A stretch of 45,249 bases of DNA from Rubrivivax sp. GTDB taxonomy: Bacteria; Pseudomonadota; Gammaproteobacteria; Burkholderiales; Burkholderiaceae_C. Below the pieces are notes generated by a model, which saw nothing but the letters and a program-made list of their open reading frames with translations, searched no databases and was not told the DNA's origin. A program made the translations under genes and the position numbers. The DNA lies in contig JAHCKS010000036.1 of assembly GCA_026125665.1 (NCBI GenBank), forward strand, positions 1 through 45,249. Direction: 5' to 3'. Of this stretch, positions 5,455 to 33,053 are shown in pieces; positions within the stretch are counted from its first letter, which is position 1; every line of letters begins with the position of its first letter.

Positions 5455-5458
<4 letters not shown>
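4502..5458 (-). CDS. Carbohydrate ABC transporter permease (MalF/UgpA type)
   Basis: First permease of the importer, about 318 residues with six predicted membrane helices, beginning with MLVPMLGVLALVGGWPLV. The EAA motif is CLEAARVDGVPRRTVFRHVT followed by LPLILPG, which is diagnostic for binding-protein-dependent permeases. The start is either GTG at 5458 (GTGA overlap with the stop of the binding-protein gene) or GTG at 5464; the protein differs by two residues. It lacks the extra periplasmic P2 loop of E. coli MalF, so it is closer to the UgpA/ThuF subgroup. The short overlaps on both sides indicate translational coupling in a single operon. Confidence 0.93.
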
Positions 5459-6750
<1,292 letters not shown>

Positions 6751-6816
6751 GGGCTCGGGTCCTCCGCGTATCGCACCAGGGCGGACGCGTCCGAGTGTAG
6801 GCCGGGGCGTCGCCCT

Positions 6817-6836
6817 CGCATCTTCCTGGGACCCGC
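6817..6836 (+). promoter_or_regulatory. Box A: copy of the recurrent TTCCTGGGA motif
   Basis: Sequence CGCATCTTCCTGGGACCCGC. It shares the 10-bp core CTTCCTGGGA with boxes C and D but is the most divergent copy (13 of 20 identical to box C). It lies in the 119-bp divergent gap between the sugar ABC operon and the response regulator gene, so it could act on either. On the minus strand a TACACT stretch lies just downstream (6795-6800) and could be a weak -10 for the transport operon. Confidence 0.4.
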
Positions 6837-6869
6837 CGTGGCTTGCGCCGCGGCGGGGCAGCGAGCAAC

Positions 6870-7547
6870 ATGCGGCGGGACATGCACCGCGTGCTGCTGC
6901 TCGAGGACGACCCCGCCACGCGCGAGCGGCTGGCCGGCATCGTCACCGCCAGCCCCGGCCTCGCGCTGGCTGGCGCCTTCGGCGACCTGAAGAGCGCGCT
7001 CGCGTGGCTCGCCGCACACGAGCCGCCGCAGGTGCTGCTGGTGGACCTGCAGCTGCCCGACGGCAGCGGCATCGACCTCATCCGCGCCGCGCGCCGCATC
7101 GCCCCCGAGGCCGAGGCGATGGTCATCAGCGTCTTCGGCGACGAGGCGCATGTCGTTGCCGCCATCGAGGCCGGCGCCACCGGCTACCTGCTGAAGGACG
7201 CCGGCGCCGACGAGATCGCGCTGGCCATCGCGCGGCTGCTGGCCGGCGAGTCGCCGATCAGCTCGGCCATCGCGCGACACCTGCTGCGGCGCTTCCGCGC
7301 CACGCCGGCGGCGGCCGCCGCGGCGCCCGCCGTGCCCTCGCCGCTGACGCCGCGCGAAGGCGAGGTGCTGCAGCTCATCGCCAAGGGGCTGAGCTACCAG
7401 CGCATCGCCGAGGCGCTGGCGATGTCGCCGAACACGGTGACGACGCACATCAAGCAGATCTACCGCAAGCTGGCCGTCAACTCGCGCGGCGAAGCGGTGT
7501 TCGAGGCGCAGCAGATGGGCCTGCTGCGGCCGGCCGGCCCGTCGTGA
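6870..7547 (+). CDS. NarL/FixJ-type response regulator
   Basis: DNA-binding response regulator of 225 residues from ATG 6870 (TTG 6843 and ATG 6882 are in frame; 6882 starts nearest to the conserved receiver, MHRVLLLEDD). The receiver domain has the acidic pair in LLLEDD, the phospho-acceptor Asp at about residue 59 in LLVDLQLPDGSG, the conserved Ser in MVISVFGDEAHV, and Lys in GYLLKDAGADE. A linker rich in Ala and Pro leads to a LuxR-type helix-turn-helix (LTPREGEVLQLIAKGLSYQR, then SPNTVTTHIKQIYRKL, about residues 158-200). Its stop overlaps the histidine kinase start (GTGA), so the two form a cognate pair. Box A lies 34 bp upstream of the chosen start. Confidence 0.95.
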   Translation: MRRDMHRVLLLEDDPATRERLAGIVTASPGLALAGAFGDLKSALAWLAAHEPPQVLLVDLQLPDGSGIDLIRAARRIAPEAEAMVISVFGDEAHVVAAIEAGATGYLLKDAGADEIALAIARLLAGESPISSAIARHLLRRFRATPAAAAAAPAVPSPLTPREGEVLQLIAKGLSYQRIAEALAMSPNTVTTHIKQIYRKLAVNSRGEAVFEAQQMGLLRPAGPS

Positions 7548-9514
7548 CGGTCGGCGCGGCGGCGCGCCGTGCGCGCTGGGTGGCGCTGGCCACGGCGCTG
7601 GTGCTGGCGTGCCTGCCGCTGGCGCTCGAGCGGGCCGCCGCGCCGGCCGAGGCGTGGCGCCTGCGGGTGGCCGCGGTCGGCGAGACGGTCGACGACGAAC
7701 GGGCGCGCGCCGTGGTGCTGCCGCACCGCTGGGCCGACGACTGTGCCGGCTGCCGCGCGCTGTGGTACCGCATCGACCACCCGATGCCCGACCTGCCGGG
7801 CGAGGCGCAGGCGGTGGTCCTGCCGCAGCTGGCCGACAACGCGGCCGTCTACCTCAACGGGCGCCTGCTCGGCCAGGGCGGCCGCTTCGCCGACCCGGTG
7901 GCGCGCCTGGGCATGCGGCCGCTGTGGCTGCCGGCGCCGGCCGCGCTGTGGCAGGCCGGGGACAACCGCCTGTACGTGCTGGTGAAGGCGGCGCGGCCCG
8001 GGGCCGGGCACATGCCGGCGCCGGCCATCGGGCCCGAGGCCGAGCTGGCCGGCGCGTGGTGGGTGCGCGAGGCGCTCGCCGTGACGCTGCCGCAGGTGCT
8101 GGCCACCGCGGCCATCGTGCTGGCGCTGATGATGGGCGCGATGGCGTGGTACCGCCGGCGCGAGCCGGGTTACCGCGAGCTCGCCGTGGCCGCGGCGCTG
8201 TTCGGGGCGGACACGCACGCCCGGCTCTTCGTCGAGGTGCCGTTCGCGGCCGAGACCTGGGATGCCGTGCTGCTGGGCCAACGCGGCGTGCTCGTGGTGG
8301 CGGTGCTCTGGCTCGTGCGCTCGCTCGCCCGGGCTGCGCGCGACGACGTCGCGCCCGAAGGCGCCCGGATCGCCGATGGGACCGGGCGCGTGCCGCGCCG
8401 CGCCCTCTGCGGCCCGCTGGCCGCCACCGGCTCGGCCGCCGTCGCCGCCGTGCTGCTCGCCAGTGCTTCCTTCGTTCCCGCGGCGAGCGCCGTCGATGTC
8501 GCCGAGGCCCTGGCACGTCTGGTGCTCGGCGCGGCGGCGATGGTCCTGGCGCGAGACGGCTGGCGGCGCGCCGAGCCGCGGCTGCTGGCCAGCGGCGCGT
8601 TGCTGGCGCTGGCCTGTGGTATCGACCTGCTGCGCCTGCCGCCGCTGGCGCTGCCCAATGCGCTGCCGGCCGGCCTGCTGCCCGAGCCGCTGCCGCTCGT
8701 GCCGTGGGCGCTGGCGGCCATGGCCGCGGCCGCCGGCTGGCTGCTGCTCGTGCGCTTCGTCGAGACGCTGAACGCGGCCGAGCTGCTCAACATCGACCTC
8801 GAGGCGCTGGTGCACGAGCGCACCGCCGAGCTGCAGGCGCAGTTCGGCCGCGTGCGCGAGCTCGAGCGCCAGCAGGTCGTCGCCGCCGAGCGCGAGCGGC
8901 TGATGCGCGACATGCACGACGGCGTCGGCGGCCACCTCGTCTCGATCCTGGCGATGATCGAGGCCGACCGGCGGCGCCCCGGCGAGCTGGCCACGGCGGT
9001 GCGCGAGGCGCTGACGGACATGCGGCTCATGGTCGATTCGCTCGAGCCGGTGGACGACGACCTGAACGCTGTGCTGGCGATGTTCCACGACCGCCTCGCG
9101 CCGCGGCTGCGGGCGAGCGGCGTGACGCTGCACTGGGACGTGGCGCTGCTGCCCGCGGTGCCCGGCCTGACGCCGGCGCGTGTGCTGCACGTGCTGCGCA
9201 TCCTGCAGGAGGCGGTGAGCAACGCCCTGCGGCACGGCGGCGCGCGCACGCTGTGGATGCGCGCGGCGGCCGGGCCCGACGGCGTCGAGATCGAGCTGCG
9301 CGACGATGGCACGGGTTTCGCGCCCGACGGCGTTGCCGGCGGGCGCGGGCTGAAGAACATGCAGCGTCGCGCGCAGGAGGCCGGCGCCGCGGTGCACATC
9401 GCCAGCCGGCCGGGCGACGGATGTCGCGTGTCGCTGCGGCTGCCGCTCGTTGGCTCGGCCGGGGAGGGTGGCCCGCCGCCTCCGGGTGCCCACCCGGCGG
9501 CCGGGCCTGCCTGA
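7544..9514 (+). CDS. Membrane sensor histidine kinase, HisKA_3 (NarX/DesK-type) with extracytoplasmic jelly-roll-like domain
   Basis: Sensor kinase of 656 residues starting at GTG 7544, which overlaps the response regulator stop. Seen in order: an N-terminal hydrophobic segment (WVALATALVLACLPLAL); an exported region about residues 30-170 that resembles the galactose-binding-like sensor folds of 7TM-type kinases (AVVLPQLADNAAVYLNGRLL, then NRLYVLVKA); roughly seven hydrophobic helices to about residue 410; a coiled coil (LVHERTAELQAQFGRVRELE). The dimerisation/phosphotransfer box RERLMRDMHDGVGGHLVSIL has His458, and the ATPase has an N-box around Asn560 (QEAVSNALRHGG) and a G-box DDGTGF near 587. 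The NarX-like kinase fits the NarL-like partner. The ligand is unknown; the sensor fold and the neighbouring importer suggest a sugar or envelope cue, which is inference. Confidence 0.93.
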   Translation: MTVGAAARRARWVALATALVLACLPLALERAAAPAEAWRLRVAAVGETVDDERARAVVLPHRWADDCAGCRALWYRIDHPMPDLPGEAQAVVLPQLADNAAVYLNGRLLGQGGRFADPVARLGMRPLWLPAPAALWQAGDNRLYVLVKAARPGAGHMPAPAIGPEAELAGAWWVREALAVTLPQVLATAAIVLALMMGAMAWYRRREPGYRELAVAAALFGADTHARLFVEVPFAAETWDAVLLGQRGVLVVAVLWLVRSLARAARDDVAPEGARIADGTGRVPRRALCGPLAATGSAAVAAVLLASASFVPAASAVDVAEALARLVLGAAAMVLARDGWRRAEPRLLASGALLALACGIDLLRLPPLALPNALPAGLLPEPLPLVPWALAAMAAAAGWLLLVRFVETLNAAELLNIDLEALVHERTAELQAQFGRVRELERQQVVAAERERLMRDMHDGVGGHLVSILAMIEADRRRPGELATAVREALTDMRLMVDSLEPVDDDLNAVLAMFHDRLAPRLRASGVTLHWDVALLPAVPGLTPARVLHVLRILQEAVSNALRHGGARTLWMRAAAGPDGVEIELRDDGTGFAPDGVAGGRGLKNMQRRAQEAGAAVHIASRPGDGCRVSLRLPLVGSAGEGGPPPPGAHPAAGPA

Positions 9515-9541
9515 AGCGGGCCCGCCGCCAAGTCATCGGGA

Positions 9542-9970
9542 TCAGTTCGGGATGATGACCGGCGGCACCTGCGTCGTGCCGTTGGCGCGGCACAGGTCGC
9601 GCGCGCCGGGGCCGGCGTCGGTGACGCGGTTCATGCCGGGCGGGCACGCGACGGGAGCCACCTGGCTGGGCGCCGGCATGATGATGTTGCCGGGCCGGCA
9701 GAAGTCGGTGTTGGCTCCGAACGGCGGGCTCGGCACGGCCGGCTGGCCCACCTGCACCGGCATCACCACGTACACCGGGTGGCTGGGCGGGCAGGCCGTC
9801 GGCGCCTGGGCGCGCGCGATGCACCGCAGCGTGTTGTTCGAGAACTGCGTCGTGACGTCGAGAGCGGCGTTGTCGGTGGGGCAGCGGGCGCCCACGGCGA
9901 AGGCGGGCAGCGAGACGGCGCCGAGGCCGAAGACGAAGGCGGTGGCGGCGAGGCGGCGGAACGTGGTCAT
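9542..9970 (-). CDS. Small secreted protein with six mature cysteines, function unknown
   Basis: 142 residues from ATG 9970, which has AGAGGA about 9 nt upstream; a longer reading to 10000 is less likely. A signal peptide is visible (TTFRRLAATAFVFGLGAVSL, probable cleavage after PAFA). The mature part has six cysteines (in ARC, LRC, TAC, DFC, VAC, DLC) and is rich in Pro, Val and Asn, which suggests a small disulfide-stabilised periplasmic or extracellular protein. I do not recognise a family. It ends 27 bp from the end of the histidine kinase gene (convergent). Two tandem copies of the TTCCTGGGA box lie in its 264-bp upstream gap in the same orientation, so it is a good candidate for a target of the neighbouring two-component system. 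Confidence 0.8.
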   Translation of the reverse strand: MTTFRRLAATAFVFGLGAVSLPAFAVGARCPTDNAALDVTTQFSNNTLRCIARAQAPTACPPSHPVYVVMPVQVGQPAVPSPPFGANTDFCRPGNIIMPAPSQVAPVACPPGMNRVTDAGPGARDLCRANGTTQVPPVIIPN

Positions 9971-10113
9971 GATGGCGTTTCCTCTGGCGTAGCGGGACAC
10001 TGGGTTGCGCGGCCAGGCGCCGCGCCTCGGCCCGGGCTGCGAGTGCGGTGCGGCAGGAGCCGCGCCGGGGTCGCATTCAGGGTGCAGTCAGTGTCCGAAG
10101 CGGCCGCACGGGC

Positions 10114-10155
10114 GCCCATACCGGGAAGGCGGCAGGGCGCTCCCAGGAATGCGGC
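10114..10155 (-). promoter_or_regulatory. Boxes B1 and B2: two tandem copies of the TTCCTGGGA motif
   Basis: On the minus strand B1 (10155-10136) reads GCCGCATTCCTGGGAGCGCC and B2 (10133-10114) reads GCCGCCTTCCCGGTATGGGC. B2 matches box C at 18 of 20 positions and B1 at 16 of 20. Their TTCC cores are 22 bp apart, about two helical turns, so a protein could bind both on the same face. They lie 144-185 bp upstream of the small secreted protein gene. An ACACTG occurs 33 nt downstream of the B2 core and at nearly the same distance (34 nt) downstream of box C. Confidence 0.45.
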
Positions 10156-10234
10156 AGGGCGCCGCCGCGGCATCCGCAGGGCGGGGGAGAAGCGAGCGGC
10201 GACCGTGGCCGCAGGCGCGGGGCGCACGCGCCGC

Positions 10235-11983
10235 TCAGCGGCACGCCCACGCGCCGCCGGCCTGCCGCTCGCAGAGGTCAGGTGCACCGCGCGTCGCCCA
10301 CAGCGCGGCGAGGCCGCTGCGCTCGGCGGCGTCGGCGAAGCCGGCATGCCGGCGCACGCCGGCGAGCTCGGGCCACCAGAGGTCCTCGACCCAGCGCGCG
10401 ATCGGCCGCGCGGAGATGGCGCGCAGCGACGCGGCGGCGCGGCCGGTTTCGCCGAGCAGCGCCCACTCGAGGAGCAGCTCGGCGCGCATCGCGCGCTCGT
10501 TGTCGTCCATGGCCAGCAGCGCCGAGACGGCGGCCGGCCGCGCCGCCGGGTCGAGCACGCCGCGCACCCACGGCGTGGCCCAGCTGCCGGGCTTCGCCGT
10601 CGAGCCGGCGAAGGCGCCGGCGGCGGCCTCGAAGCCGGCGGCGTCGCCGCGGCGCAGCGCCAGCAACGCCTCGGCGAGCTCGATGCGCCGGTGGCCCATC
10701 TGCCGCGCCAGCGCCAGCGTCTCGGCGAAGTCGTCGGCTTCGCCCAGCGCCGCATGCGCCAGCGCCAGCACCTCGTAGGCCTCGGCGTCGAGCGCGTTCA
10801 GCCGTGCCGCGTCCAGCGCCAGCGCCTTCGCCTGCCGCAGGTAGCCGGCCGACAGATGCAGCCGCGCCGCGATGCGCAGCACGCCCGGATGCCGCGCGGT
10901 GTGGCGGCTGGTCAGCGCGCCGGCGTGCTCCAGCGCCTCGGCCCACCGCGCGTGCGCGAACGCGTCGTTGAGCAGCAGGATGCGGCCGCGCCAGCTGGCC
11001 GGGTCGCGCGCGACGAGCCGCTGCCCGAGCGCGCGGATCTGCTCGTTGAGGCGGCGGTGCGAAGCCTCCACCTCCTCGCGGCTGCCCTGGTTGGCCGGCC
11101 CGGTGGCCGAGGCGCTGAGCACGCTCGTCAGGCCCAGGCGCATGTACAGCGCCGGCTCGTAGTCGGGCGCGGCGGCCAGCACCTGCTCGTTCAGGCGGTA
11201 GGCCTCGCGCTTGTCGGCCACCGTCGGGCGCCGCGCCAGCTGCGCGGCGCGCAGGAAGTCCAGGTAGGCCTGCTCCGGGATCGCGGTCTCCTCCGGCGCC
11301 GCTTCGCCGGTGCCGAGCAGGCGGCCGACGGCCTGGGCCACGCGGCCCGGCAGCGCCTGCACCTGCGCGGCGCGCAGTTCCTCGTCGAGCACCCAGGCCG
11401 CCGGCGGCGCCGGCGCGGCTTGCGTCGTCGGTGCCGGTGCTTGCGAACCGCGTCGTGCGGCCGGCGACGCCGCATCGCGCAGCTCGAGCCTCAGGTGCAC
11501 GAGGTCGCCTTGCGTGGCGCGCAGGCTGCCGGCGAGCACGTAGCGCGCACCCAGCAGGCGGGCCAGCCCGGCATCGTCGAGCGCGGCGGCCACCGCGGCG
11601 CGCGTGGCAGCGCAGGGCACGACGCGCACGTTGCCGGCGCGCGCCAGGCGCGAGCCGAGTGCGTCGCAGAGGCTCTCGGCGAGAGCCCCCGGCGCGATGC
11701 CGCCCGCGCCGGCCGACGAGGCGCCGCCGCCGGCCGCACCTTCGACCACCAGGTCGCGCAGCGCGATGCCGGGCGTGGCGTCGTGGCCGCGCTGCAGGCG
11801 GCGGTCCAGCACACCGGCGAGGTCGGCCGGCGCTGCACCGGTGGCGGCCGGGCGAGGCGCGATCACGAGCCAGGCACCGACCATCACCGCGGCCAGCGCG
11901 AACGCGCCGAGCAGCGCGGCCAGCGCCCAGTGCCGGCGGCGCGGCAGGGCCGTCGCCGGTGCAGAGGAGGCGTCGCGGATCAC
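10235..11983 (-). CDS. Membrane-anchored protein with TolB-N/FlgO-like domain and TPR-like repeats (paralog A)
   Basis: 582 residues from GTG 11983 (VIRDASSAPATALPRRRHWA). A short cytoplasmic tail precedes one membrane helix (about 19-41, LAALLGAFALAAVMVGAWLV). Next comes a domain like the TolB-N/FlgO-like module found in CadC- and cyclase-type regulators (AESLCDALGSRLARAGNVRV, then DDAGLARLLGARYVLAGSLR). The remainder is helical and TPR-like (AYLDFLRAAQLARRPTVADK, EQVLAAAPDYEPALYMRLGL) and ends LWATRGAPDLCERQ. It is a clear paralog of the gene at 12692-14458 and is divergent from the CARDB-like gene. Relatives known to me usually carry a DNA-binding or enzymatic domain in front; here only about 18 residues precede the helix. 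Its role is unknown. A partner or sensor for envelope signalling is inference. Confidence 0.82.
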   Translation of the reverse strand: MIRDASSAPATALPRRRHWALAALLGAFALAAVMVGAWLVIAPRPAATGAAPADLAGVLDRRLQRGHDATPGIALRDLVVEGAAGGGASSAGAGGIAPGALAESLCDALGSRLARAGNVRVVPCAATRAAVAAALDDAGLARLLGARYVLAGSLRATQGDLVHLRLELRDAASPAARRGSQAPAPTTQAAPAPPAAWVLDEELRAAQVQALPGRVAQAVGRLLGTGEAAPEETAIPEQAYLDFLRAAQLARRPTVADKREAYRLNEQVLAAAPDYEPALYMRLGLTSVLSASATGPANQGSREEVEASHRRLNEQIRALGQRLVARDPASWRGRILLLNDAFAHARWAEALEHAGALTSRHTARHPGVLRIAARLHLSAGYLRQAKALALDAARLNALDAEAYEVLALAHAALGEADDFAETLALARQMGHRRIELAEALLALRRGDAAGFEAAAGAFAGSTAKPGSWATPWVRGVLDPAARPAAVSALLAMDDNERAMRAELLLEWALLGETGRAAASLRAISARPIARWVEDLWWPELAGVRRHAGFADAAERSGLAALWATRGAPDLCERQAGGAWACR

Positions 11984-12071
11984 GGCGTGGCGATGTTCGT
12001 GTGGCAGGTCGTGCGGGCGGGCACCCCCTGCATTGTGGGCACCGAGGCCGGGTGAAGAAGCCCGCGCGAGT

Positions 12072-12091
12072 GCCGCCTTCCTGGGATGGGC
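12072..12091 (+). promoter_or_regulatory. Box C: copy of the TTCCTGGGA motif
   Basis: Sequence GCCGCCTTCCTGGGATGGGC, 19 of 20 identical to box D. It lies in the 167-bp divergent gap between paralog A (minus strand) and the CARDB-like gene (plus strand), 59 bp before the start of the latter. A weak -10-like CACACT lies at 12111-12116. Confidence 0.5.
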
Positions 12092-12150
12092 ACCGCCGCG
12101 CGGCGGCCGCCACACTGCGGCGGCGGTGCCCGGTGGGCGGGCCCGGGAGC

Positions 12151-12639
12151 ATGGACATGCCGTGCCGGCGCGCGTGGTGGATGGCAGGAAGCGTGTGGCT
12201 GGCCACCGCGGCGGGCACGCCGGTGGCCCTCGCCGCGCCTGCCGCGCCCGCTGCACCGGCCGCGCGAAGGGCGCTGCCGGACCTCGTCGTCGTGCACGTG
12301 CGCGCGATGCCCGGCGGCGTGCGCGTGGGCCGCTGCAACACCTTCGAAGTGGTGCTGCGCAATGCCGGCGCCAGCCCGGCCGCGGCCACGCAGGTGCGGC
12401 TGGCCGTGGCACGGCCGGGGCCGGGCGCGGCGGTCGTGGACAGCCGCACCGTGGCCGTCGCGGCGCTGGGGCCGGGCCAGCAGGCCTCGCTGACCGTGGC
12501 CGGCGTGCTGGTGCCCGAGCCGGGGCCCTGGCGCATCGCCGCCGGCCTGGATGCAGCGCGCACGCTGGCCGAAGCGGACGAACACAACAACGAGCGCACG
12601 ATCGAGGTCACCAGCGCACCGGCGCTGTGCCTGCGCTGA
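12151..12639 (+). CDS. Exported CARDB-like protein
   Basis: 162 residues from ATG 12151, preceded by GGGAG at a good distance; an in-frame ATG at 12157 is also possible. The N-terminus is a signal peptide (AWWMAGSVWLATAAGTPVAL, then an Ala/Pro stretch). The mature part reads as one immunoglobulin-like CARDB domain: LPDLVVVHVR, NTFEVVLRNAGASPAAATQV, then ALGPGQQASLTVAG and a closing DEHNNERTIEV. Such domains usually mediate adhesion or protein contacts at the cell surface; there is no enzymatic motif. It is the first gene of a plus-strand run with paralog B (53-bp gap). Box C lies upstream, which suggests joint control with the other envelope genes. Confidence 0.85.
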   Translation: MDMPCRRAWWMAGSVWLATAAGTPVALAAPAAPAAPAARRALPDLVVVHVRAMPGGVRVGRCNTFEVVLRNAGASPAAATQVRLAVARPGPGAAVVDSRTVAVAALGPGQQASLTVAGVLVPEPGPWRIAAGLDAARTLAEADEHNNERTIEVTSAPALCLR

Positions 12640-12691
12640 GTTGCCGCGGCCGGCCCGGGCGCCGCATCATCGCGAAGTGCATCCCTGGCGC

Positions 12692-14458
12692 ATGCGCGAC
12701 ACGATCCCCCGCGTGAGCCGTGCGGCCCCGAGCACCGGCGTGCACCCCGGCGCGAGCGGCGAGACGAGCGGCAATGCGAGCGGCGATGCGAGCGGCGTGG
12801 CCAACGCCGCGGCCCGGTCCGCCCCGGCGCGAGTCCGCGCACCGCGCTGGCAACCCTGGCTGGCGCTCGCCTTGCTGCTGGCGGTGCTGACCCTGGCCGC
12901 CGTGCTGGTCACGTCGCAGTGGCCGCGGCGAGCCGGTACCTCGGGCGGTGCAGGCGCCGTCGACACCGCCGAGGCGCTGGCGCTGACGCTCGATCGCACG
13001 CTGGCACGCGGCGGGCGGCCGCTGCCGCCCGGACTGGCGGTGCGGCCGCTGAGCGCACCCGAAGGCGACGGCGAGGCCGCGGCCATCGGCGCCACGATGT
13101 GCGAAGCCATCGGCACACGCCTCGCGCGGCTGCCGCAACTGCGCGTGACCCCCTGCTCCTCCACCCGCGCCGCGGTGGCCGCGCGCCTGGACGATGCGGC
13201 GCTGGCGCGCCTGGTCGTGGCGCAATGGGTGCTGCGCGGCGAGATCGCGTCGCGCCCCGCCGGGCGCGTGGCGCTGCGCCTGGCGCTGCACGAGCCGGCG
13301 GCGCGCGCCGCCCCGGTGTGGCAGATGGACGAGGAGGTCGAGGTGGGGCAACTCCAGGCGCTGCCGCAGCGCCTGGCGCAGGCGGCCTCGGTGGCGCTCG
13401 GCCGGCCGGCACCGGGGCCCGACGCCCCGGCCATCGCCGCGGCGCTCTATGTGCGCTACCTGCGCGCCGTGCAGCTGGCGCGTGTGCCCGACGCCGCTTC
13501 GCGCCAGCAGGCGCTGGCCATCGTCGACGAGGTGCTCGCCGCCGAGCCCGGGTACGGGCCGGCGCTGTACGTGCGGCTGGCGCTGCGCATCCTGGGCGCC
13601 GGCGCGCCCGCGGGCCCGCCCTCCGAACGCCGCGCGCACGAGGAAGCCATCACCGCGGAGCTCGAGTCGCTCGGCGCGCGCCTGCTGCGCGCCGACCCGG
13701 CGAACGTGCGTGCGCACGTGCTGCTGCTCAGCCACGCGTTCAAGCAGCGCCGCTGGGTCGACATGTTCGCGCATGCCGACGCGATGCTGCCGCACGCGCC
13801 GCAGGTGCCCTTCGTGCTGCGCATCGCCGCGCGCGTGCACCTGTATGCGGGCTATGTGCGGCGCGCCGGCGAGCTGGCGCTGCAGGCGGTGCAGCTGGAC
13901 GCACTCGATGCCGACTCGATGGAGGCGCTGGCGCTGGTGCACGGCGTGCTCGGCGACGACGCGCGCATGGCCGAGTTCGCGGCGCTGGCGCGGCAGCTCG
14001 GCCATCGCGGCACCGGCCTGCAGGAGATGGTGCTGGCGCGCCGCCGTGGCGACGCCGTGGCGGCGGCACGGGCGGCGCACGACTGGGCCGCCTACACCGG
14101 GCACCCGGCCGGCTGGGTGGAGCCGTTCGCGCGTGCCCTGGCCGATGCCCGGGCGCGGCCCGCGGCGCGCGCCGCCTTCGACGGCATGGGCGACGCGGCG
14201 CGCTTCGGCATGGCCGACTACTTCGTCGAACGTGGCCTCGTCGGCGACCATGCCGGCAGCCTGCGCGCGTTGCAGCAGCAGGCGCGCGAGGCGCCGGCTC
14301 GCTGGGTGGAGCAGCTGTGGTGGCCCGAGCTGGCCCCCGTGCGAGGCGATGCGGCGTTCACGGCCATCGTCGAGGCGCTGAACCTGCCGCCGCTGTGGGC
14401 GCAGCGCGGCGCACCCGACCTCTGCTCGCGGCAGCAAGACCGCTGGACCTGCCGCTGA
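12692..14458 (+). CDS. Membrane-anchored protein with TolB-N/FlgO-like domain and TPR-like repeats (paralog B)
   Basis: 588 residues from ATG 12692 (MRDTIPRVSRAAPSTGVHPG). The cytoplasmic tail of about 50 residues contains a low-complexity stretch of Gly/Ala/Ser with Asn, Asp or Thr, from imperfect repeats of GCGAGCGGCGAT around 12752-12799. One membrane helix follows (about 54-74). Then come the TolB-N/FlgO-like part (GATMCEAIGTRLARLPQLRV, DDAALARLVVAQWVLRGEIA) and TPR-like helices (IVDEVLAAEPGYGPALYVRL), ending LWAQRGAPDLCSRQQDRWTC. It aligns along its length with paralog A, including the terminal motif. It lies between the CARDB-like gene and the outer-membrane protein gene on the same strand. 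The function is unknown. Confidence 0.85.
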   Translation: MRDTIPRVSRAAPSTGVHPGASGETSGNASGDASGVANAAARSAPARVRAPRWQPWLALALLLAVLTLAAVLVTSQWPRRAGTSGGAGAVDTAEALALTLDRTLARGGRPLPPGLAVRPLSAPEGDGEAAAIGATMCEAIGTRLARLPQLRVTPCSSTRAAVAARLDDAALARLVVAQWVLRGEIASRPAGRVALRLALHEPAARAAPVWQMDEEVEVGQLQALPQRLAQAASVALGRPAPGPDAPAIAAALYVRYLRAVQLARVPDAASRQQALAIVDEVLAAEPGYGPALYVRLALRILGAGAPAGPPSERRAHEEAITAELESLGARLLRADPANVRAHVLLLSHAFKQRRWVDMFAHADAMLPHAPQVPFVLRIAARVHLYAGYVRRAGELALQAVQLDALDADSMEALALVHGVLGDDARMAEFAALARQLGHRGTGLQEMVLARRRGDAVAAARAAHDWAAYTGHPAGWVEPFARALADARARPAARAAFDGMGDAARFGMADYFVERGLVGDHAGSLRALQQQAREAPARWVEQLWWPELAPVRGDAAFTAIVEALNLPPLWAQRGAPDLCSRQQDRWTCR

Positions 14459-14527
14459 GGCGCGGGGCTCGCCGGGTCGCTCGATGCATCGCGCACGGCC
14501 CGGCGCGCGGGTGTGCACAAGCGCGCT

Positions 14528-14547
14528 ACCGCCTTCCTGGGATGGGC
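14528..14547 (+). promoter_or_regulatory. Box D: copy of the TTCCTGGGA motif
   Basis: Sequence ACCGCCTTCCTGGGATGGGC, one mismatch from box C. It lies in the 111-bp gap after paralog B, ending 22 bp before the chosen start of the outer-membrane protein gene. The frame of that gene is open through the box, but the box similarity to four other non-coding copies suggests it is not coding and that translation begins at 14570. Confidence 0.5.
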
Positions 14548-14569
14548 GCGTCAGGCACACGACCGGACG

Positions 14570-16729
14570 ATGCAGCGCATGGCCCGCCTCGCCTTGCCCA
14601 CCGCATGCAGTGCGCTCGCCGCCGTTCCGGCCGCGTGCCTGCTGCTGCTGGCCGGCCCGGCGGTGCTGGCGCAGCCCGGGGCCTCGAGCACGTCGTTCGC
14701 CGACCGCTGGGTGGCCGCCGACGCGCCGCTGGTGCTGCACTTCGAGCCCGACGCGTGGCGCGAGCTGCTGGCCGCGCGGGACCGCCTGCGCCTGTTCGTC
14801 GGCAAGCACGACCTGAGTGCGCTCGTGCGCGTGCCGGCGCCGGGCCGCCTGGAAGTCGGCGGCAACGTCGCCTGGCCGAGCGGCGAGAGCGAGGTCGTGC
14901 TCTACCTCGTGCAGGCCGACATGTGGCAGGAGCTCGGCCGCTGGCCGCTGCGCGTGCGCACGCCGGCGGGGTTCGAGTCGAGCAGCTTCGAGCCGCGGCT
15001 CGAGCTGCGCTTCGGCGGCCGCGCCGCCGAGCGCCGCAGCGACGGCCAGCCCGTCACGCCGCGCGGCACCCACGGCGACGCCAGCGCGCGCGGCGGCGTC
15101 GCCTTCACGGGCCAACGCGACGGCTGGCAGCTCGACGCGGCTGCGCAGGGGCAGGCCGCGAGCTTCCGCGGCGAGGCGCTGCGCTTTGCCACGCTCGGGC
15201 TCGCGGCACCGCGCGCCGACCTCGCCGAGTACCGCCTTGCGGCCACACACGGCCGCTTCGGCGCGCGCGTCGGCCACGCCGAGTTCGGCCGCCATCCGCT
15301 GCTGATGAACGCCTTCGCAGCGCGCGGCCTCGGCGTCAGCGCGCCACTTGGCGCGCGCTTCGACCTCGCGCTGCACGCCGCGAGCGGCAGCCAGATCGTC
15401 GGCACCGACAACCTCAGCGGCGTCGAGGAGCGCGAGCACCGCATCCAGGGCGCCAGCGTCGGCGCCGAGCTCGGCCGCGGCTGGCGGCTGGAGGTGAGCG
15501 GCCTCGAGGCGCGGCAGGCGCCGATCACCGACTTCGCCGCCGGCAGCGTGGCCGACGCCGAGCGCAGCCGCGGCCTCGGCTGGCGGCTGCATCGCGCCGC
15601 GGGGCGCCTGCGGGTCGACGCGGCGTGGGCCCGTTCGCGCCACGAGCACCCGTTCGACACCGCGCTGGCGCAAGGTGGCCCGCTGGTGGCCGTGGCGCCG
15701 GCGACGCGCGATGCGCACCGCGTCGAGGTGCAGGCCGACGTGCTGGCACCGCGCGAGGCGGCTGGTGCGGCCGCCGAGGGCCCTGCGGCCGCCGCGGGCG
15801 GCGGCACGGGCGCGCCGGCCGATGCCGCGCATGCGCCGCCGACACTCACGCTCACCGCGCTGCACGAGCGCAGCGCGCCGCTTTATCGCAGCCTGGCCGC
15901 GGTCATCTCCGGCGACCAGCTGCATGGCCGCGTCGGCGCCACGGCCGCGTGGCGAGGCGCGAGCTTGACGCTGGCGGCCGGGCGGCGCGAGGACAACCTG
16001 GCGCGCATCGCCACGCTGCTGGCCACGCGCACCGAGGAGCGCACGGCGAGCCTCGCGCTGCCGCTGCCGCGCTGGCTGGGCGAAAGTGGCGCGGGCGGCG
16101 AGGGCGGCACGGGAGGTGCCTGGCCGCAGGTTTCGCTGTCGGCCCAACGCGCGCACCAGTTCGCGTTGAACACGCCGCTCGCCGACGACTCGGGCTTCGC
16201 CGAGACGCACCGGCCCGACCAGGTGACGGCGCAGGCGCAGGGCCAGCTCGTGTGGTCGTTCGCCGGCGGCGCGGCGCTGAGCACGGGCGCGACGCTGTCG
16301 CGCGTCGACAACCGGCAGGTCGGCCGCGAGAACGCCGACTTCGACACGCTCGCGCACCAGGCCTCGCTCGGCCTGCCGCTTGCGCCCACGCTGCGCGCCC
16401 GGCTCGCCGGGCAGCGCTCGCGCCAGCTGGCGCGCGAGATCGGCCTTGCCAACGTCGGCGAAGCGGCGAGCCTCGGCCTGGACTGGCAACCGACGCCCAA
16501 GTGGACGCTCGGCGCGCAGGCCAGTGGCGAGCGCAACGACGCGGCGCGGCAGGAGATCGTGCAGGTGCACGTGGCGCGCGCCTTCGAGGTGCCGAACGGC
16601 ACGACGAAGCTGGCGGGCCAGGTCTCGCTGCGTGCAACGGCGCAGCAGAGCCGGCCGCTGGACCCCGCCGCCGGCGCGCGGCTGCGCCAGGGCTGGGTCG
16701 ACCTGGCGCTGACGATCCAGCTGCCGTGA
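14570..16729 (+). CDS. Predicted outer-membrane beta-barrel protein, function unknown
   Basis: 719 residues from ATG 14570 (MQRMARLALPTACSALAAVP); an earlier ATG at 14513 would place box D inside the gene and spoil the signal peptide. Signal peptide to about residue 37 (cleavage near VLAQ). An N-terminal beta-rich domain (residues about 45-150: APLVLHFEPDAWRELLAARD, VVLYLVQADMWQELGRWPLR) is followed by some 500 residues with alternating polar/hydrophobic strands and aromatic girdle residues (DGWQLDAAAQGQAASFRGEA, GASLTLAAGRREDNLARIAT). The end is QGWVDLALTIQLP, weakly like a barrel terminus. No TonB box or plug was seen. I do not recognise a named family. The position between paralog B and another exported protein suggests one envelope assembly. 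Confidence 0.75.
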   Translation: MQRMARLALPTACSALAAVPAACLLLLAGPAVLAQPGASSTSFADRWVAADAPLVLHFEPDAWRELLAARDRLRLFVGKHDLSALVRVPAPGRLEVGGNVAWPSGESEVVLYLVQADMWQELGRWPLRVRTPAGFESSSFEPRLELRFGGRAAERRSDGQPVTPRGTHGDASARGGVAFTGQRDGWQLDAAAQGQAASFRGEALRFATLGLAAPRADLAEYRLAATHGRFGARVGHAEFGRHPLLMNAFAARGLGVSAPLGARFDLALHAASGSQIVGTDNLSGVEEREHRIQGASVGAELGRGWRLEVSGLEARQAPITDFAAGSVADAERSRGLGWRLHRAAGRLRVDAAWARSRHEHPFDTALAQGGPLVAVAPATRDAHRVEVQADVLAPREAAGAAAEGPAAAAGGGTGAPADAAHAPPTLTLTALHERSAPLYRSLAAVISGDQLHGRVGATAAWRGASLTLAAGRREDNLARIATLLATRTEERTASLALPLPRWLGESGAGGEGGTGGAWPQVSLSAQRAHQFALNTPLADDSGFAETHRPDQVTAQAQGQLVWSFAGGAALSTGATLSRVDNRQVGRENADFDTLAHQASLGLPLAPTLRARLAGQRSRQLAREIGLANVGEAASLGLDWQPTPKWTLGAQASGERNDAARQEIVQVHVARAFEVPNGTTKLAGQVSLRATAQQSRPLDPAAGARLRQGWVDLALTIQLP

Positions 16730-16884: not shown

Positions 16885-18198
16885 ATGAAGGCTCGATGGC
16901 GCGCGCTCCTCGCGGGTTTGGTCGGCGCGCTGGCCGCGTCGTCGTTCGTGCCGCCGGCGCACGCGGTGAGCGGCGTGCATCCCTTCGGCGTCAACGTGCG
17001 CAGCAACGGCGCGACGTCTGTCTTCCTCACCTTCCAGGGCCTCGACGCCGGCGAGGCGCCGGTGGAGGCCTACTGGTGCGGCGAGCTGCAGCCGGCGCTG
17101 ATGGCCGCCAACCCGGGCCTGCAGCTGCCGGTGCCGGTGCAGGCCACCGACCCCTGCGTGCCGGGCACGGTCTATGGCCGGCTGCCGCTGGCGCTGCAGC
17201 GCGCGCGGCCTTCGGGTACCGGCGGCCTCGCCAACCTCACCGACGTGATGACGATCCCCGCGTCGGTGGCACGGCGCGCCTACCAGGACGCGGCGGCCGG
17301 CGCGAACTCGACCTTCTTCTACGTGCGCCGCTTCACCGGCCCGGCCGGCGACCGATTCGTCGTCGTCACCTGCCGCATGGGCGGCGGCGGCGCGCGCACG
17401 GCACTGGCGCTGCTGGACGTGCGCGTGGACTTCCGCGCCGGCGGCGCGGCGGGCCGGCGCGTCGAGCTGGCGCTGGCGCGCGGCGACGTGCCGCCGCCGC
17501 TGGCCGCGCGCGTGCTCTACAACGGCAGCGGCACGCTGCGCGGGCGCTGGGAGCTGGTGCAGCCCGGCGACCCGCTGCCCACCGACGACGACCTGCTGAC
17601 CGAAGCGTCGCTGCCGCTGGAACAGCGGCTGCGCCAGCGGCGCTGGCGGCTGCTCGAGCGCTTCGAGGTCTTCCTGCCGCCCGGCGGCGCCGAGGTGCAG
17701 GTGCCCGGCCCCGATCCGCGGCGGCTCGAGACCGCGGTCGACGGCGCCTACCAGGTACTGCTGCGCGTGGAAGCGAGCGACGACAAGGAGGCGACGAGCC
17801 AGATCGGCGGCGGCGCGGTGGCCGTGGCCGGCGGCGTGGCCGGCTTTCCGATGCCGGTGCTGCGTTATCACGTCGGCGCGCCCGGCGCGGCGCAGGGCCT
17901 GCGTGAAGGCGCCGCCGTGCCGATCGCACCGGTGCCCGATGCCGCCGTCGAAGGCACACCGAGCTTCGCGTGGATCGACCCCGCAGCGGCAGCGCTGCTG
18001 CGCCTGCGCGTGCGCGAGCAGCCCGACGGCGAGGATCTGCTCGTCGCCTTCGTGCGCCCGGGCACCTCGCGCTACGACGCGCCGCCGTGGTTTGCCGAGG
18101 CGCAGCGCGGCAAGGCGCTGGTGTGGCGCATCGAGTCGCTGGGCGAACGCGGTGAACTGCTCGGCACGAGCGGCTGGCGGGCGCTGCAGCTGCGCTAG
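16885..18198 (+). CDS. Exported protein of unknown function
   Basis: 437 residues from ATG 16885, with a strong GGAGGAG 7 nt upstream, so the start is secure although the frame is open far upstream. Signal peptide MKARWRALLAGLVGALAASS, cleavage near AHA. The mature protein begins HPFGVNVRSNGATSVFLTFQ and is beta-rich. It carries cysteines in YWCGEL, DPCVPG and VTCRMGG. The second half (about residues 200-437) contains a region resembling fibronectin or immunoglobulin-like folds (AVEGTPSFAWIDPAAAALLR, WRIESLGERGELLG). It follows the predicted barrel after 155 bp. That gap has reiterated ACGCCCGATG-like words but no TTCCTGGGA box. A periplasmic or surface partner of the barrel is a guess from context. 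Confidence 0.8.
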   Translation: MKARWRALLAGLVGALAASSFVPPAHAVSGVHPFGVNVRSNGATSVFLTFQGLDAGEAPVEAYWCGELQPALMAANPGLQLPVPVQATDPCVPGTVYGRLPLALQRARPSGTGGLANLTDVMTIPASVARRAYQDAAAGANSTFFYVRRFTGPAGDRFVVVTCRMGGGGARTALALLDVRVDFRAGGAAGRRVELALARGDVPPPLAARVLYNGSGTLRGRWELVQPGDPLPTDDDLLTEASLPLEQRLRQRRWRLLERFEVFLPPGGAEVQVPGPDPRRLETAVDGAYQVLLRVEASDDKEATSQIGGGAVAVAGGVAGFPMPVLRYHVGAPGAAQGLREGAAVPIAPVPDAAVEGTPSFAWIDPAAAALLRLRVREQPDGEDLLVAFVRPGTSRYDAPPWFAEAQRGKALVWRIESLGERGELLGTSGWRALQLR

Positions 18199-19264: not shown

Positions 19265-21412
19265 TCAGCGCACCGCGCCCGGCGGGGCGAGCAGCTCGCG
19301 CAGGCCGCTGCCGCGCCGCGTCAGCCGCCGCACCGCCGTTTCCACCAGCGCCGGCTCGGCTGCGGCGAGCGTGAAGGCGGCCTTCGCACGCGTGACGGCC
19401 GTGTACATCAGTTCACGCGTCAGCACCGGCACGTCCTCGCCGGGCAGCAGCAGCGCGACGTGTTCGAACTCCGAGCCCTGGCTCTTGTGCACCGTCAGCG
19501 CGAAGGCGGTCTCGACGTCGGCCAGGCGGCTGCAGGCCACCGAGCGCAGCGTGCCCGTGTCGAGGAAGTAGACGCGCGGCGCCGGCTCGCCCGCCGCCAT
19601 GGCGCCGGGCGGTCTGAGCGCGAGGCCGATGTCGCCGTTGAAGACGCCGAGCCCGGGATCGTTGCGCGTCACCATCACCGGGCGGCCCTCGTACCACTCG
19701 GTGCGCCGCGCGGGCAGCAGCCGGGCTTCGGCCAGCGCCTGCTCGATCGCATCGTTGACCGCGGCCACGCCCTGCGGGCCTTCGCGCACCGCGCACAGCA
19801 CGCGGAAGCGGTCGAAGGCCGTGAGCACGTCGCGCGCCCAGGCATCGAACGCGGTGGCGGCGCCCGGGCGCCTGCTCAGCAGCTCGTAGCAGGTGCGGTA
19901 GCCAGCGGCCTCGATCTCGCGGGTGCCTCGGGCACCGCGGCCTTCGATGGCCAGCGTGCGCAGGGCCGCACCTTCGTGTGCCCCGGGCCAGCACACCACG
20001 GCTTCCCCGCCGCCGGACGGCGCGAGGCACTGCCGAACCGCGGCCACGTCGCCGCGGTTCACCGCCGCCGCGAGCTCGCCGATGGCGCCGCTGAAGCGGT
20101 GGCTCGTGCGCAGCATCGCGGTGCGCTGCGCCAGCGCAGCATCATCCCCCTCCTTGGCGAGAAGCCGTGCCGGCACGGCGATGCCGGCCAGCGCCCGCAC
20201 GCGTTGCTGTGTCCGGGCGTCGTAGCCACCGGCCTCGGCGCCGGCGCACAGGTCACCGAGCACCGCGCCGGCCTCGACGGACGCGAGCTGGTCCTTGTCG
20301 CCCAGCAGCACCAGGTGCGCATGTGCAGGCAGCGCGTCGAGCAGCGCGTCCATCATCTCCAGGTGCACCATCGACGCTTCGTCGACGAACAGCACGTCCA
20401 CCTCGAGCGGCTCGCTCGCGTCGTGGCGGAAGCGGCGCGTGCCGGGGCGTGCGCCGAGCAGCGCATGCAGCGTGCGTGCGGCGCCGGGTGGTGCGGTGGG
20501 GTCGTGCTCGAAGAGATCGCGCTCGATCGTCGGCCGCAGACCGGCCAGTGCCGCGTCGATGGCCTGGCGCAGCCGCGCCGCCGCCTTGCCGGTGGGCGCC
20601 GCCAGCGCCACGCGCAGCGGATGCCTGCCGCGATGCAGCGCCTGCAGCAGCACGAGCAGGCGCGCGGCGGTCGTCGTCTTGCCGGTGCCCGGGCCGCCGG
20701 TGACGATGGTGAAGCGGCCCAGCAGCGCCAGCGCGCAGGCGAGCTTCTGCCAGTCGACGGGCGGCTCGGCTTCGTCGGCGGCGCGAGCCTTCGCACGCCT
20801 CGTCGATGCGGCCGGTGGAAAGAGCCGGTCGAGCCAGCGCCTGGCGGCCTGGGTGTCGATTTCGGGCGCGCCGGCATCGGCCCGCGTGCGCGCAAGCACC
20901 TGCGCGGCCACGCGCGACTCCCAGGTCCAGTAGCGGCGCAGGTACAGCCGGCCGCCGTGCAGCACGAGCGGGGAGAGCCGGTCGAGCCGGAGGCGCGCCG
21001 AGTGCGCCGGGACCGCTGGGTCCGGCGCTTCCGCCGCCTCGGGCGCGAAGGGCGATCGCGGCCCCGGCACGGCCGGCCCGGGCGGGTCGAGCTCGATCAG
21101 TGGCGAGGCCGCCCACGCGGCCCGTTCGGTGTTCCACGCCGGCAGCAGCGCGCGCAGCTCCTCCGACCACGGCGCGGCCCACCCCAGCGCATCGGCCGCC
21201 TGCGCCGGCGTCAGCTGCGCGAGCTCGATGCAGTCATGGCCGCGCCCTTCCATCCGTGCCGCCAACGCGCCGGCCAGCAGCAGGCTCGCCGGCGCGCCGG
21301 CATCCAGCTCGTGCAGCAGCCGCGCAAAGGCCACGTCGAGCGCGCGCAGCTGGCCGGCCAGACGCCAGCGTTGCAGCGTCTCGAGCATCGGCGCGCTCGC
21401 CGTCCCGGTCAT
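19265..21412 (-). CDS. recD: Exodeoxyribonuclease V subunit alpha (RecD helicase)
   Basis: 5'-3' helicase subunit of RecBCD, 715 residues; the longer frame to 22192 is antisense-like noise over recB. The start ATG 21412 overlaps the recB stop (ATGA). Seen: the N-terminal RecD domain (WRLAGQLRALDVAFARLLHE), Walker A TGGPGTGKTTTAARLLVLL at about residue 240, motif Ia in ALAAPTGKAAARLRQAI, Walker B VDVLFVDEASMVHLEMMDAL, motif III LVLLGDKDQLASVEAG, and the C-terminal motif in FALTVHKSQGSEFEHVALLL with ELMYTAVTRAK. The size is near the E. coli protein (608) plus extensions. It is the last gene of recC-recB-recD; RecD supplies the fast motor and Chi-regulated nuclease control in double-strand break repair and degradation of foreign DNA. 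Confidence 0.97.
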   Translation of the reverse strand: MTGTASAPMLETLQRWRLAGQLRALDVAFARLLHELDAGAPASLLLAGALAARMEGRGHDCIELAQLTPAQAADALGWAAPWSEELRALLPAWNTERAAWAASPLIELDPPGPAVPGPRSPFAPEAAEAPDPAVPAHSARLRLDRLSPLVLHGGRLYLRRYWTWESRVAAQVLARTRADAGAPEIDTQAARRWLDRLFPPAASTRRAKARAADEAEPPVDWQKLACALALLGRFTIVTGGPGTGKTTTAARLLVLLQALHRGRHPLRVALAAPTGKAAARLRQAIDAALAGLRPTIERDLFEHDPTAPPGAARTLHALLGARPGTRRFRHDASEPLEVDVLFVDEASMVHLEMMDALLDALPAHAHLVLLGDKDQLASVEAGAVLGDLCAGAEAGGYDARTQQRVRALAGIAVPARLLAKEGDDAALAQRTAMLRTSHRFSGAIGELAAAVNRGDVAAVRQCLAPSGGGEAVVCWPGAHEGAALRTLAIEGRGARGTREIEAAGYRTCYELLSRRPGAATAFDAWARDVLTAFDRFRVLCAVREGPQGVAAVNDAIEQALAEARLLPARRTEWYEGRPVMVTRNDPGLGVFNGDIGLALRPPGAMAAGEPAPRVYFLDTGTLRSVACSRLADVETAFALTVHKSQGSEFEHVALLLPGEDVPVLTRELMYTAVTRAKAAFTLAAAEPALVETAVRRLTRRGSGLRELLAPPGAVR

Positions 21413-33000: not shown

Positions 33001-33053
33001 CCGACGACGTGGTGCGCTGGTTCGCGGGTCGGATGCCGGATGTGCCTGACTAG
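30039..33053 (+). CDS. TIR domain - transmembrane - WD40 beta-propeller protein
   Basis: 1004 residues from GTG 30039, with AGGGATC upstream. Residues 1-95 form a TIR domain: FDAFISYKRETERDIAAAL, FYRRSPLRIFRDDEILQAG, PRFLEEAIEASRFLIVLCSP, SPWVDREV. Glu64/Glu65 lie where NADase TIRs have a helix-borne Glu, but assignment as catalytic is uncertain. A conserved companion stretch follows (RILPVIAAGDWRWD, PPALAGVFPEEPFVIDLRFV), a membrane helix at about 195-213 (VAMAAAVVLTIGAAVAGVQL), then a juxtamembrane helix (ARSRQLADLSAEAMRQGAYP). The last 650 residues read as WD40-like blades (VTSATVSRDRRRVLTTSDDG, VLSSAFSPDGRRVLTIAGDN). Bacterial TIR-WD40 proteins of this design exist in other phyla; anti-phage or stress signalling is inferred, not shown. 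Local A+T looks higher than in neighbours. Confidence 0.88.
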   Translation: MQRRTGRGFDAFISYKRETERDIAAALSHAVRRIGVPFYRRSPLRIFRDDEILQAGTSLPRFLEEAIEASRFLIVLCSPAAATSPWVDREVRHFLAGAPDAAARILPVIAAGDWRWDAAANDFDRSGNAIPPALAGVFPEEPFVIDLRFVRQRSDASLGKPEFRIAVAALAAPIRGVTREALDGAEQRQARQLRVAMAAAVVLTIGAAVAGVQLARELERQRVSARSRQLADLSAEAMRQGAYPRAFALARRAWELERSGASGEALLAFWARSRIARLDAPGSGVGAFSHAGERVATGPSSLIWPAPGGVQVWDIRGQSVGTPLPAGYEFVAFTKDDSRLVVRWSLDSRAAETVLSAGHDRQAYRSRLELREAGGRKLADVVLRGRWPTRAAADAREYAEVPWESEAIATSRSGDTIAIVTPEGHGVVWTRDGDALVERLRRPSTVQVDVAAAGDRVLLTGTDGALVLWETAGRPARAIETPEPVLQSRFLPGERALLALSKSTARVVGLDGTIVASFPVPGQVQFVESSRDGSRLLLESADGTFALHDTATWRRLMPGSPPSSELLDAQRACRRGGGEEGRVAGRAVRTALRVTPRPALSADGSRVMRLCGGSIEAWGLHSDVPVRLGLGSAPAFAALSPDGTVLLRFEPGEVPRPELQFVQPLLPISVGHSRLVNAVVPGLPQDSFMTTSQDATARIWSTRGHLVATLPHDGAVTSATVSRDRRRVLTTSDDGKARLWSADGGLERTFELGEPLVAGLLPPDADLVVAVGRASVQGWSVGGAPRFAWREDAAINAATSNAQGEFVLASTSGEAKVRSADGALRCRLRHPASVLSSAFSPDGRRVLTIAGDNQVRVFDLCQDKPLARFEHASMVLGAAWLDDSTILTGARHGPVRLWRLGLGGPFKTLPGRRVEGEATATYASVKVAADRQAFVTATAHGLVEVWSRDGRLRYDFTVSDLDEAVPADDGRVLVRSNRHVEVFGLPSPDDVVRWFAGRMPDVPD

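Follow-up and report, generated by a model that had tools for sequence, protein, structure and literature searches.

The closest described counterparts of the system treated here are promoters bound by response regulators of the NarL family. Escherichia coli NarL recognizes two inverted elements of 7 base pairs (bp) set 2 bp apart (the narG -89 palindrome, napF, yeaR, ogt), and the cited sections place its sites at -40 to -49 in napF and -38 to -47 in yeaR (PMC4549865), and at -44.5 in ogt (PMC7419079). In Bordetella, dimers of BvgA, another member of the family, sit 22 bp apart on one face of the helix, the last of them abutting the -35 element or, at the fim promoters, being co-centric with it (PMC7250471), and the proximal site of the NarL-family regulator DevR/DosR overlaps the -35 element, with adjacent sites bound cooperatively (PMC3029386). 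The placement of such regulators at or over the -35 element and the 22-bp tandem arrangement of dimers are thus known already, as far as the cited parts of these sources describe them. Here we analysed a 45,249-nucleotide (nt) contig of a Rubrivivax sp. (JAHCKS010000036.1, hereinafter the window; G+C 70-79% in 2-kb steps) from a 6.3-Mb draft genome, in which five copies of a short box lie in the gaps of a gene cluster headed by a NarL-type response regulator. With a probability of about 0.85, we take this box to be the operator of that adjacent regulator (6882-7547), forming part of sigma70-type promoters whose -35 element is poor.

The core of the box is a 16-bp dyad, TNCCGNN-TT-CCTGGNA, followed by T-G. 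Judged by its letters, it reads as a NarL-type operator of two inverted heptamers 2 bp apart (a 7-2-7 arrangement) with the ends T.CC and GG.A, a form which the E. coli TACC-N8-GGTA fits and in whose frame the engineered NarL site TACCCCTAAAGGGGTA also falls (PMC4549865). It differs from the E. coli sites in its asymmetric half-sites and TT spacer, in the 22 bp between its tandem copies as against 33 bp between the two ogt centres, and in having no known link to nitrate. The aligned helix, presumably the one that contacts DNA, reads TVTTHIK here and TVKVHVK in NarL. With BvgA the locus shares the 22-bp spacing, whereas the sites of that regulator are inverted heptads of another sequence (TAAGAAATTTCCTA) on which several dimers are stacked. 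The likeness to DevR/DosR, which comes from a different organism group and has a larger regulon, is one of layout. Aquincola is a relative of Rubrivivax. For its PEP-CTERM genes, the cited part of one study proposes two-component control by PrsK/PrsR (PMC9850573), unlike the present system in that it involves sigma54 -24/-12 promoters and a Fis-type regulator in place of a NarL-type one (REC plus GerE) and a sigma70-type -10. If our reading holds, PEP-CTERM genes under a NarL-type, sigma70-like promoter would form a route beside PrsR/RpoN. Searches of open-licence PMC papers brought up no account of this operator, regulon or cluster. An uncharacterised two-component system gains likely targets, a candidate operator and a putative promoter layout from sequence alone.

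The box and its promoter context

An earlier note on this DNA had described five copies of a 20-bp box (A, B1, B2, C and D), and these stand as it gave them in coordinates and strands, in their differences (C/D 1/20, C/B2 2/20, C/B1 4/20), in the 10-bp core CTTCCTGGGA kept by A, in the 22-bp spacing of B1 and B2, and in their non-coding placement, all five falling outside the genes called in this analysis. Our locus motif scan itself listed B1, B2, C and D, and A was added afterwards. The five copies are real and far above chance: TTCCTGGGA occurs exactly four times in the window against 0.05 expected (0/100 dinucleotide shuffles reach four), and the 20-mer with at most three mismatches occurs three times against 0.03 expected, two counts by which a chance repeat was ruled out. 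Other parts of that description had to be revised. The repeat is genuine, but the conserved unit is 22 bp long and begins 2 bp further upstream (CTRCCGNNTTCCTGGGATGSSC); it does not stand alone, being followed by a -10-like hexamer at a fixed distance; and the copies are not equals, since A has neither the T-G after the dyad nor a -10. The start of the regulator gene, formerly put at 6870, is better placed at ATG 6882, as suggested by orthologue alignment. The elements, with predicted -10 hexamers and start sites, are:

6816-6831, plus strand: box A dyad, TCGCATC-TT-CCTGGGA, beginning 66 bp before the regulator ATG 6882; no -10 at the fixed distance
10136-10157, minus strand: box B1, distal, 22 bp upstream of B2; dyad TGCCGCATTCCTGGGA at 10141-10156, followed by G instead of T; no -10 of its own
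10114-10135, minus strand: box B2, promoter-proximal; dyad TGCCGCCTTCCCGGTA at 10119-10134
10090-10095, minus strand: predicted -10 of the B2 promoter, GACACT; predicted start site about 10083
12070-12091, plus strand: box C; dyad TGCCGCCTTCCTGGGA at 12071-12086 plus T-G
12111-12116, plus strand: predicted -10 of the C promoter, CACACT; predicted start site about 12123
14526-14547, plus strand: box D; dyad TACCGCCTTCCTGGGA at 14527-14542 plus T-G
14566-14571, plus strand: predicted -10 of the D promoter, GACGAT, weaker than the usual form; predicted start about 14578, beside ATG 14579, possibly leaderless

The second conserved element, [GC]ACA[CG]T, was seen 18-19 bp past the 22-bp box on aligning the flanks of 33 sites, a list fixed from the locus motif scan before the -10 was noticed, with box A added (L numbers are our handles for loci, G numbers for genomes). 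Left off that list were three coding matches (L012:6885, L080:2278, L082:8488), two intergenic ones with four mismatches each (L083:3983 and L078:7726), and L084:7792, the site of genome G008, with two mismatches. With the four B1 copies set aside, 24 of the 29 promoter-proximal boxes have an xAxAxT hexamer 40 or 41 bases from the box start (19 and 5, respectively), as against 2/4292 at background offsets. Three further boxes (D, L015:12074 and L073:14854) have GACGAT at offset 40, which brings the total to 27/29; the remaining two are A and L015:18619, a weak match that may be no site. As a control, we took the core 11-mer matches in genomes lacking the regulator (34, of which 22 had their loci examined), and these have the hexamer in 1/22 cases with offsets 39-42 allowed. 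A matrix from which A and L015:18619 were omitted for want of a -10 recovered 27/27 sites when genomes were left out one at a time, and B2, C and D are the only places in the whole window to score above 15. Unlisted leave-one-out matches above this threshold are L014:12873 (31.9), L073:8777 (29.0), L015:11343 (16.6, a B1 copy) and L015:6610 (15.0); the top score in 0.88 Mb of strand-bases from unrelated loci, pre-filtered on three box letters, is 8.4. Flanking positions outside the box and the -10 carry at most 0.25 bits in the aligned sites.

According to the cited part of a multi-species study that includes Burkholderia cenocepacia, the commonest distance from -10 to start site is 6 bp (PMC8407463). 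If this distance holds here, the hexamer lies at -12 to -7, so that the 22-bp box would span -52 to -31 with its dyad centred near -43.5. Boxes C, D and B2 look like complete promoters, and the layout resembles by sequence that of class II activator-dependent sigma70 promoters, with a site at or over a poor -35 element and a -10 at a fixed distance in 27/29. In 5/29 promoters the -10 is followed at 6-8 nt by an ATG, where 1.3 such cases would be expected; this set of 29 differs from that of the -10 count in leaving out A and L015:18619 and taking in L014:12873 and L073:8777. All five ATGs, that of D among them, are by coordinates in frame with the following gene, a pattern that suggests leaderless messages at several targets, D included; leaderless transcripts are known in B. 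cenocepacia, as reported in the cited part of PMC4603805. The small secreted-protein gene behind B1/B2 has a predicted 5' leader of about 113 nt (9971-10083, minus strand), relatives having roughly 65-110 nt by called starts, and this leader could hold an RNA element.

A dyad centre at 8.5 pairs T1 with A16 and C4 with G13 in 33/33 sites, picked as these were by likeness to the consensus, and C3 with G14 in 24/33. We chose this centre because B1 keeps the span it implies, because it matches the NarL geometry and because related regulators have dyads of this kind. The B1/B2 tandem, with its copies 21-22 bp apart, precedes the small secreted-protein gene in four genomes (the window, L015, L016 and L073), and its two members differ consistently: a -10 follows B2 only and 0/4 B1 copies, box position 17 is G in 4/4 B1 copies as opposed to T in 27/27 matrix sites, and position 12 is C in 4/4 B2 copies as opposed to T in the 23 remaining matrix sites (C is also found in L014:12873, a single box that is not in the matrix set). 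On our reading, positions 1-16 make up the regulator site and T17-G18 is what remains of a -35 element; B1 would then be an upstream accessory site two helical turns from B2 that helps a weaker proximal site. In the tandem, the apparent requirement of the regulator (the dyad) can be told apart from that of RNA polymerase (T-G and the -10).

Box A keeps T1, C4 and T8-A16, has G at position 3 and shows C-C for T-G after the dyad. Its distance from the regulator ATG lies within the range where related regulators keep their dyads, and it is probably a binding site without a core promoter, possibly autoregulatory or vestigial; full promoters stand before the regulator operon in L012, L013, L015 and L073. 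Read in reverse, as a promoter for the gene 5455-6750, box A was rejected, the minus-strand -10-like AGTGTA (6794-6799) having the wrong offset for the 7-2-7 centre.

Cluster genes and occurrence of the box among relatives

Gene calls come from a codon-usage caller written for this analysis and their starts are uncertain by some codons. The genes of the cluster are ('TPR1', 'TPR2' and 'barrel' are our own labels):

6882-7547, plus strand: NarL-type response regulator, REC plus GerE/LuxR domain (Pfam; PDB sequence search); proposed box binder
7544-9514, plus strand: histidine kinase, HisKA_3 plus HATPase_c, overlapping the end of the regulator gene
9542-9970, minus strand: small protein with signal-peptide-like start and several Cys; predicted target of B1/B2
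10235-11983, minus strand: TPR1, paralogue of TPR2, divergent from box C
12151-12639, plus strand: CARDB-domain protein with signal-peptide-like start; predicted target of C
12692-14458, plus strand: TPR2, paralogue of TPR1, presumably in the C operon
14579-16729, plus strand: barrel, a predicted outer-membrane-type protein; predicted target of D
16885-18198, plus strand: conserved protein with signal-peptide-like start, following the barrel gene in all eight loci with the regulator orthologue; presumably in the D operon

The regulator falls among the NarL/FixJ-type response regulators by its domains (PF00072, 2.6e-18; PF00196, 8.4e-18), and its best PDB sequence match is NarL itself (1a04, 1e-26). 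TPR1 and TPR2 are TPR-like paralogues in inverted orientation, each of the five relatives compared having a single TPR gene; TPR2 has a weak match, far under the cut-off, to PrsT of the XrtA/PEP-CTERM system. Neither the barrel protein nor the 16885 protein has a Pfam or NCBIfam match, searching PDB with profiles of either protein yielded no match below E 0.4, and their structure models were too weak to use (mean predicted local distance difference test score of 47.2 and 45.8, respectively).

A regulator orthologue (at least 78% identity) is present in 8/81 genomes of the genus, with no other regulator above 58% among 399 genomes of the family; the barrel protein occurs in 6/61 near genomes, our own included. 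We read all eight loci with the orthologue and found the box before the barrel gene or its operon in 8/8 (in L014 by the matrix only, and in L012 and L013 inside an over-long called barrel start), before the small secreted protein in six (the window, L013, L015, L016, L073, L074), before a TPR gene in two (L012, L074), and before the regulator or its operon in the four loci with full promoters there. Orthologues of the small secreted protein were recovered as matches in L015, L016, L073 and L074, and another was recognized by eye in L013; a box precedes each of them. The strand of the box is that of the following gene wherever that gene is identifiable. Away from the cluster, an identical 22-bp box with a similar -10 precedes a HAF-repeat PEP-CTERM gene at L075:951-2162, on another contig, and at L076:8114-9253, about 400 kb away; these two genes are likely distal members of the regulon. 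The predicted targets are mostly secreted or envelope proteins, PEP-CTERM proteins being included in relatives. The neighbourhood at L016 additionally holds a fascin/FRG1-like protein and a DUF4953 met-zincin (L016:12098-13603 and L016:15254-17998, both minus strand) as variable cargo.

The pattern CTNCCNNNTTCCTGGGATGSS, with at most one mismatch, occurs in 9/81 genomes of the genus, namely 8/8 with the regulator orthologue and 1/73 without (Fisher 3e-10 across these related, mostly draft genomes). It had been derived from six of the eight, which leaves G471 and G464 as fresh tests; the pattern is present in both. The single one-mismatch match in a genome lacking the orthologue, G008, was set aside, this genome having no regulator above 39% identity and the site no good -10. 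Among the 399 family genomes, the exact pattern is found in two, our own (D) and G106; the latter match, in another genus, was counted as chance, lying inside a called gene without a -10. The bare core TTCCTGGGATG has 53 matches in 33/81 genomes, of which 34 fall in the 73 genomes lacking the regulator and 19 in the eight that have it; of the 19, 13 are in the cluster, two are at the distal PEP-CTERM genes and four others score low as promoters, so the excess is mainly in the cluster. Within our own genome, the exact 14-mer TTCCTGGGATGGGC is confined to C and D, with one more one-mismatch match on another contig, and a 16-mer with at most one mismatch has 11 matches, four in the cluster and seven elsewhere, against five for a reversed-pattern control. 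None of the seven non-cluster loci scores as a box plus -10 (at most 7.4, compared with 29.6-44.9 in training). The earlier note had named two outcomes that would speak against it, a random frequency of the motif elsewhere and its absence upstream of orthologous genes. What we found instead is a box upstream of orthologous genes in seven other genomes, and non-cluster sites in our own genome that are near control level (7 versus 5) with none promoter-like. Its proposal of a local regulon, with the box as the predicted binding site of the adjacent regulator, thus gains support.

Dyads ahead of related regulators and the competing explanations

The same class of dyad recurs ahead of related regulators. 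We sampled 54 of these, 47-58% identical to ours, five from the genus and 49 from elsewhere in the family (from 83 listed places outside our own genome we took the 51 with the best E-values and dropped two that lay too close to a contig end). Positions were counted from where the protein match begins, except in the five genus regulators, where the called start was used. T.CC-N8-GG.A is found at -160 to -50 in 20/54 and at -600 to -161 in three, whereas 300 shuffles average 1.9 and never exceed 6, other spacings (5, 6, 7, 9, 10, 11) give 0 to 4, and other end letters give 1 to 5. In a fresh test on regions fetched after the idea had formed the count was 14/40, and at loci partly seen before it was 6/14. 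Examples are TACCGCGATCGCGGTA (L079), TCCCATATTCATGGGA (L136) and TACCATGAAAGCGGTA (L140), and both half-sites of the present box, TNCCG and TCCCA, belong to this class. In the eight box-bearing regulators the sequence of the recognition helix is TVT[TS]HIKQIYRKL, compared with TVVTHVK[KR]IYRKL in three of the five genus relatives. These dyads form a ready data set on how NarL-type specificity evolves.

Taken together, we would picture a phosphorylated regulator dimer binding TNCCGNN-TT-CCTGGNA at about -43.5, beside or over the -35 region (T-G at about -35/-34), and helping RNA polymerase onto the GC-rich -10, [GC]ACA[CG]T, 18-19 bp past the box. In front of the small secreted-protein gene, B2, whose right half differs, would be assisted by a second dimer on B1, two helical turns upstream. 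The regulon would comprise mainly the regulator's own cluster, with its kinase and its envelope or secreted proteins.

Several points weigh against this reading. Symmetry alone is ambiguous, centres 8.5, 12.0 and 12.5 scoring alike; the invariance of T1 and A16 is partly circular, given how the sites were picked; and the half-sites differ beyond TNCCR. The matrix, through the omission of A and L015:18619, is tuned to the -10 it finds, and box A, which stands before the regulator gene itself, is without one. The relatedness of the genomes means that the Fisher value overstates their independence. Among the related regulators, 34/54 have no exact dyad in the interval, some of the 20 matches share a genus and are not independent, and a dyad with a -10 is seen in 7/54 on the sense strand versus 5/54 on the other, so these regulators back the dyad and not the position of the -10. 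Lastly, the poor -35 is not special and by itself no proof of activator dependence, promoters without the TTG of the -35 being usual in Betaproteobacteria according to the cited part of PMC8407463.

Of the competing explanations, the one that survives best, albeit as a very improbable one, makes the dyad a site of repression or assigns it as operator to another transcription factor, with the regulator gene merely a neighbour. Box A, lacking a core promoter, would suit it; however, the co-occurrence with the regulator (8/8 against 1/73) and the same dyad class before related regulators in other genera argue for the adjacent regulator as the binder, and a position near -43.5 suits an activator. 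We consider it very improbable that box and -10 are instead the two elements of a promoter for an alternative sigma factor, for example of the extracytoplasmic function (ECF) type. The nearly fixed spacing between the two and the way the box points at the gene are what such a promoter would show, but in an ECF promoter each copy would have its own -10, and neither A nor any of the four B1 copies, 21-22 bp from B2, does so. Furthermore, the -10 fits a degenerate TATAAT, and among those cluster proteins that were scanned, a part of the whole, the only sigma-type matches (Sigma70_r4, r4_2) fall on the regulator's own helix-turn-helix. That only B2 has a -10 while B1 has G17 fits an activator better than a sigma factor, and together with the 7-2-7 dyad and its recurrence before related regulators this favours the regulator. 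The 'alternative promoter' once suggested for the box therefore survives in part: the box appears to overlap the -35 region of a sigma70-type-looking promoter, while an alternative sigma factor is unlikely. The spread of functionless copies by duplication of flanking DNA is negligible as an explanation, for although the inverted paralogues TPR1 and TPR2 both have one and the same TPR gene as their match in each of five relatives, and B and D are situated downstream of TPR genes, the eight-genome comparison disfavours it, conservation being confined to the box and -10 and boxes also preceding unrelated genes such as the distal PEP-CTERM genes of L075 and L076.

Extending the operator reading beyond the genus, we tentatively suggest, at somewhat less than even odds, a regulon of a NarL-type sub-family spread over the family, whose operator (TNCCR, 7-2-7) would have diverged by clade along with the recognition helix. 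In this genus it would have settled into a fixed, asymmetric form joined to the core promoter and would drive fast-changing surface proteins, some of them PEP-CTERM, with leaderless messages from several of the targets. If true, this would provide a natural series for regulator-operator co-evolution and for separating activator from sigma contacts (B1 versus B2).

Other genes of the window

Elsewhere in the window we observed a TIR-domain protein with a C-terminal WD40 propeller (30039-33053, plus strand), beside whose gene lie two long genes, 21409-29068 (minus strand), and a RecD-like gene (19265-21412). A further gene (34165-37842, plus strand) codes for a 1225-residue protein with a BTAD domain and a weak AAA match, in a SARP-like layout.

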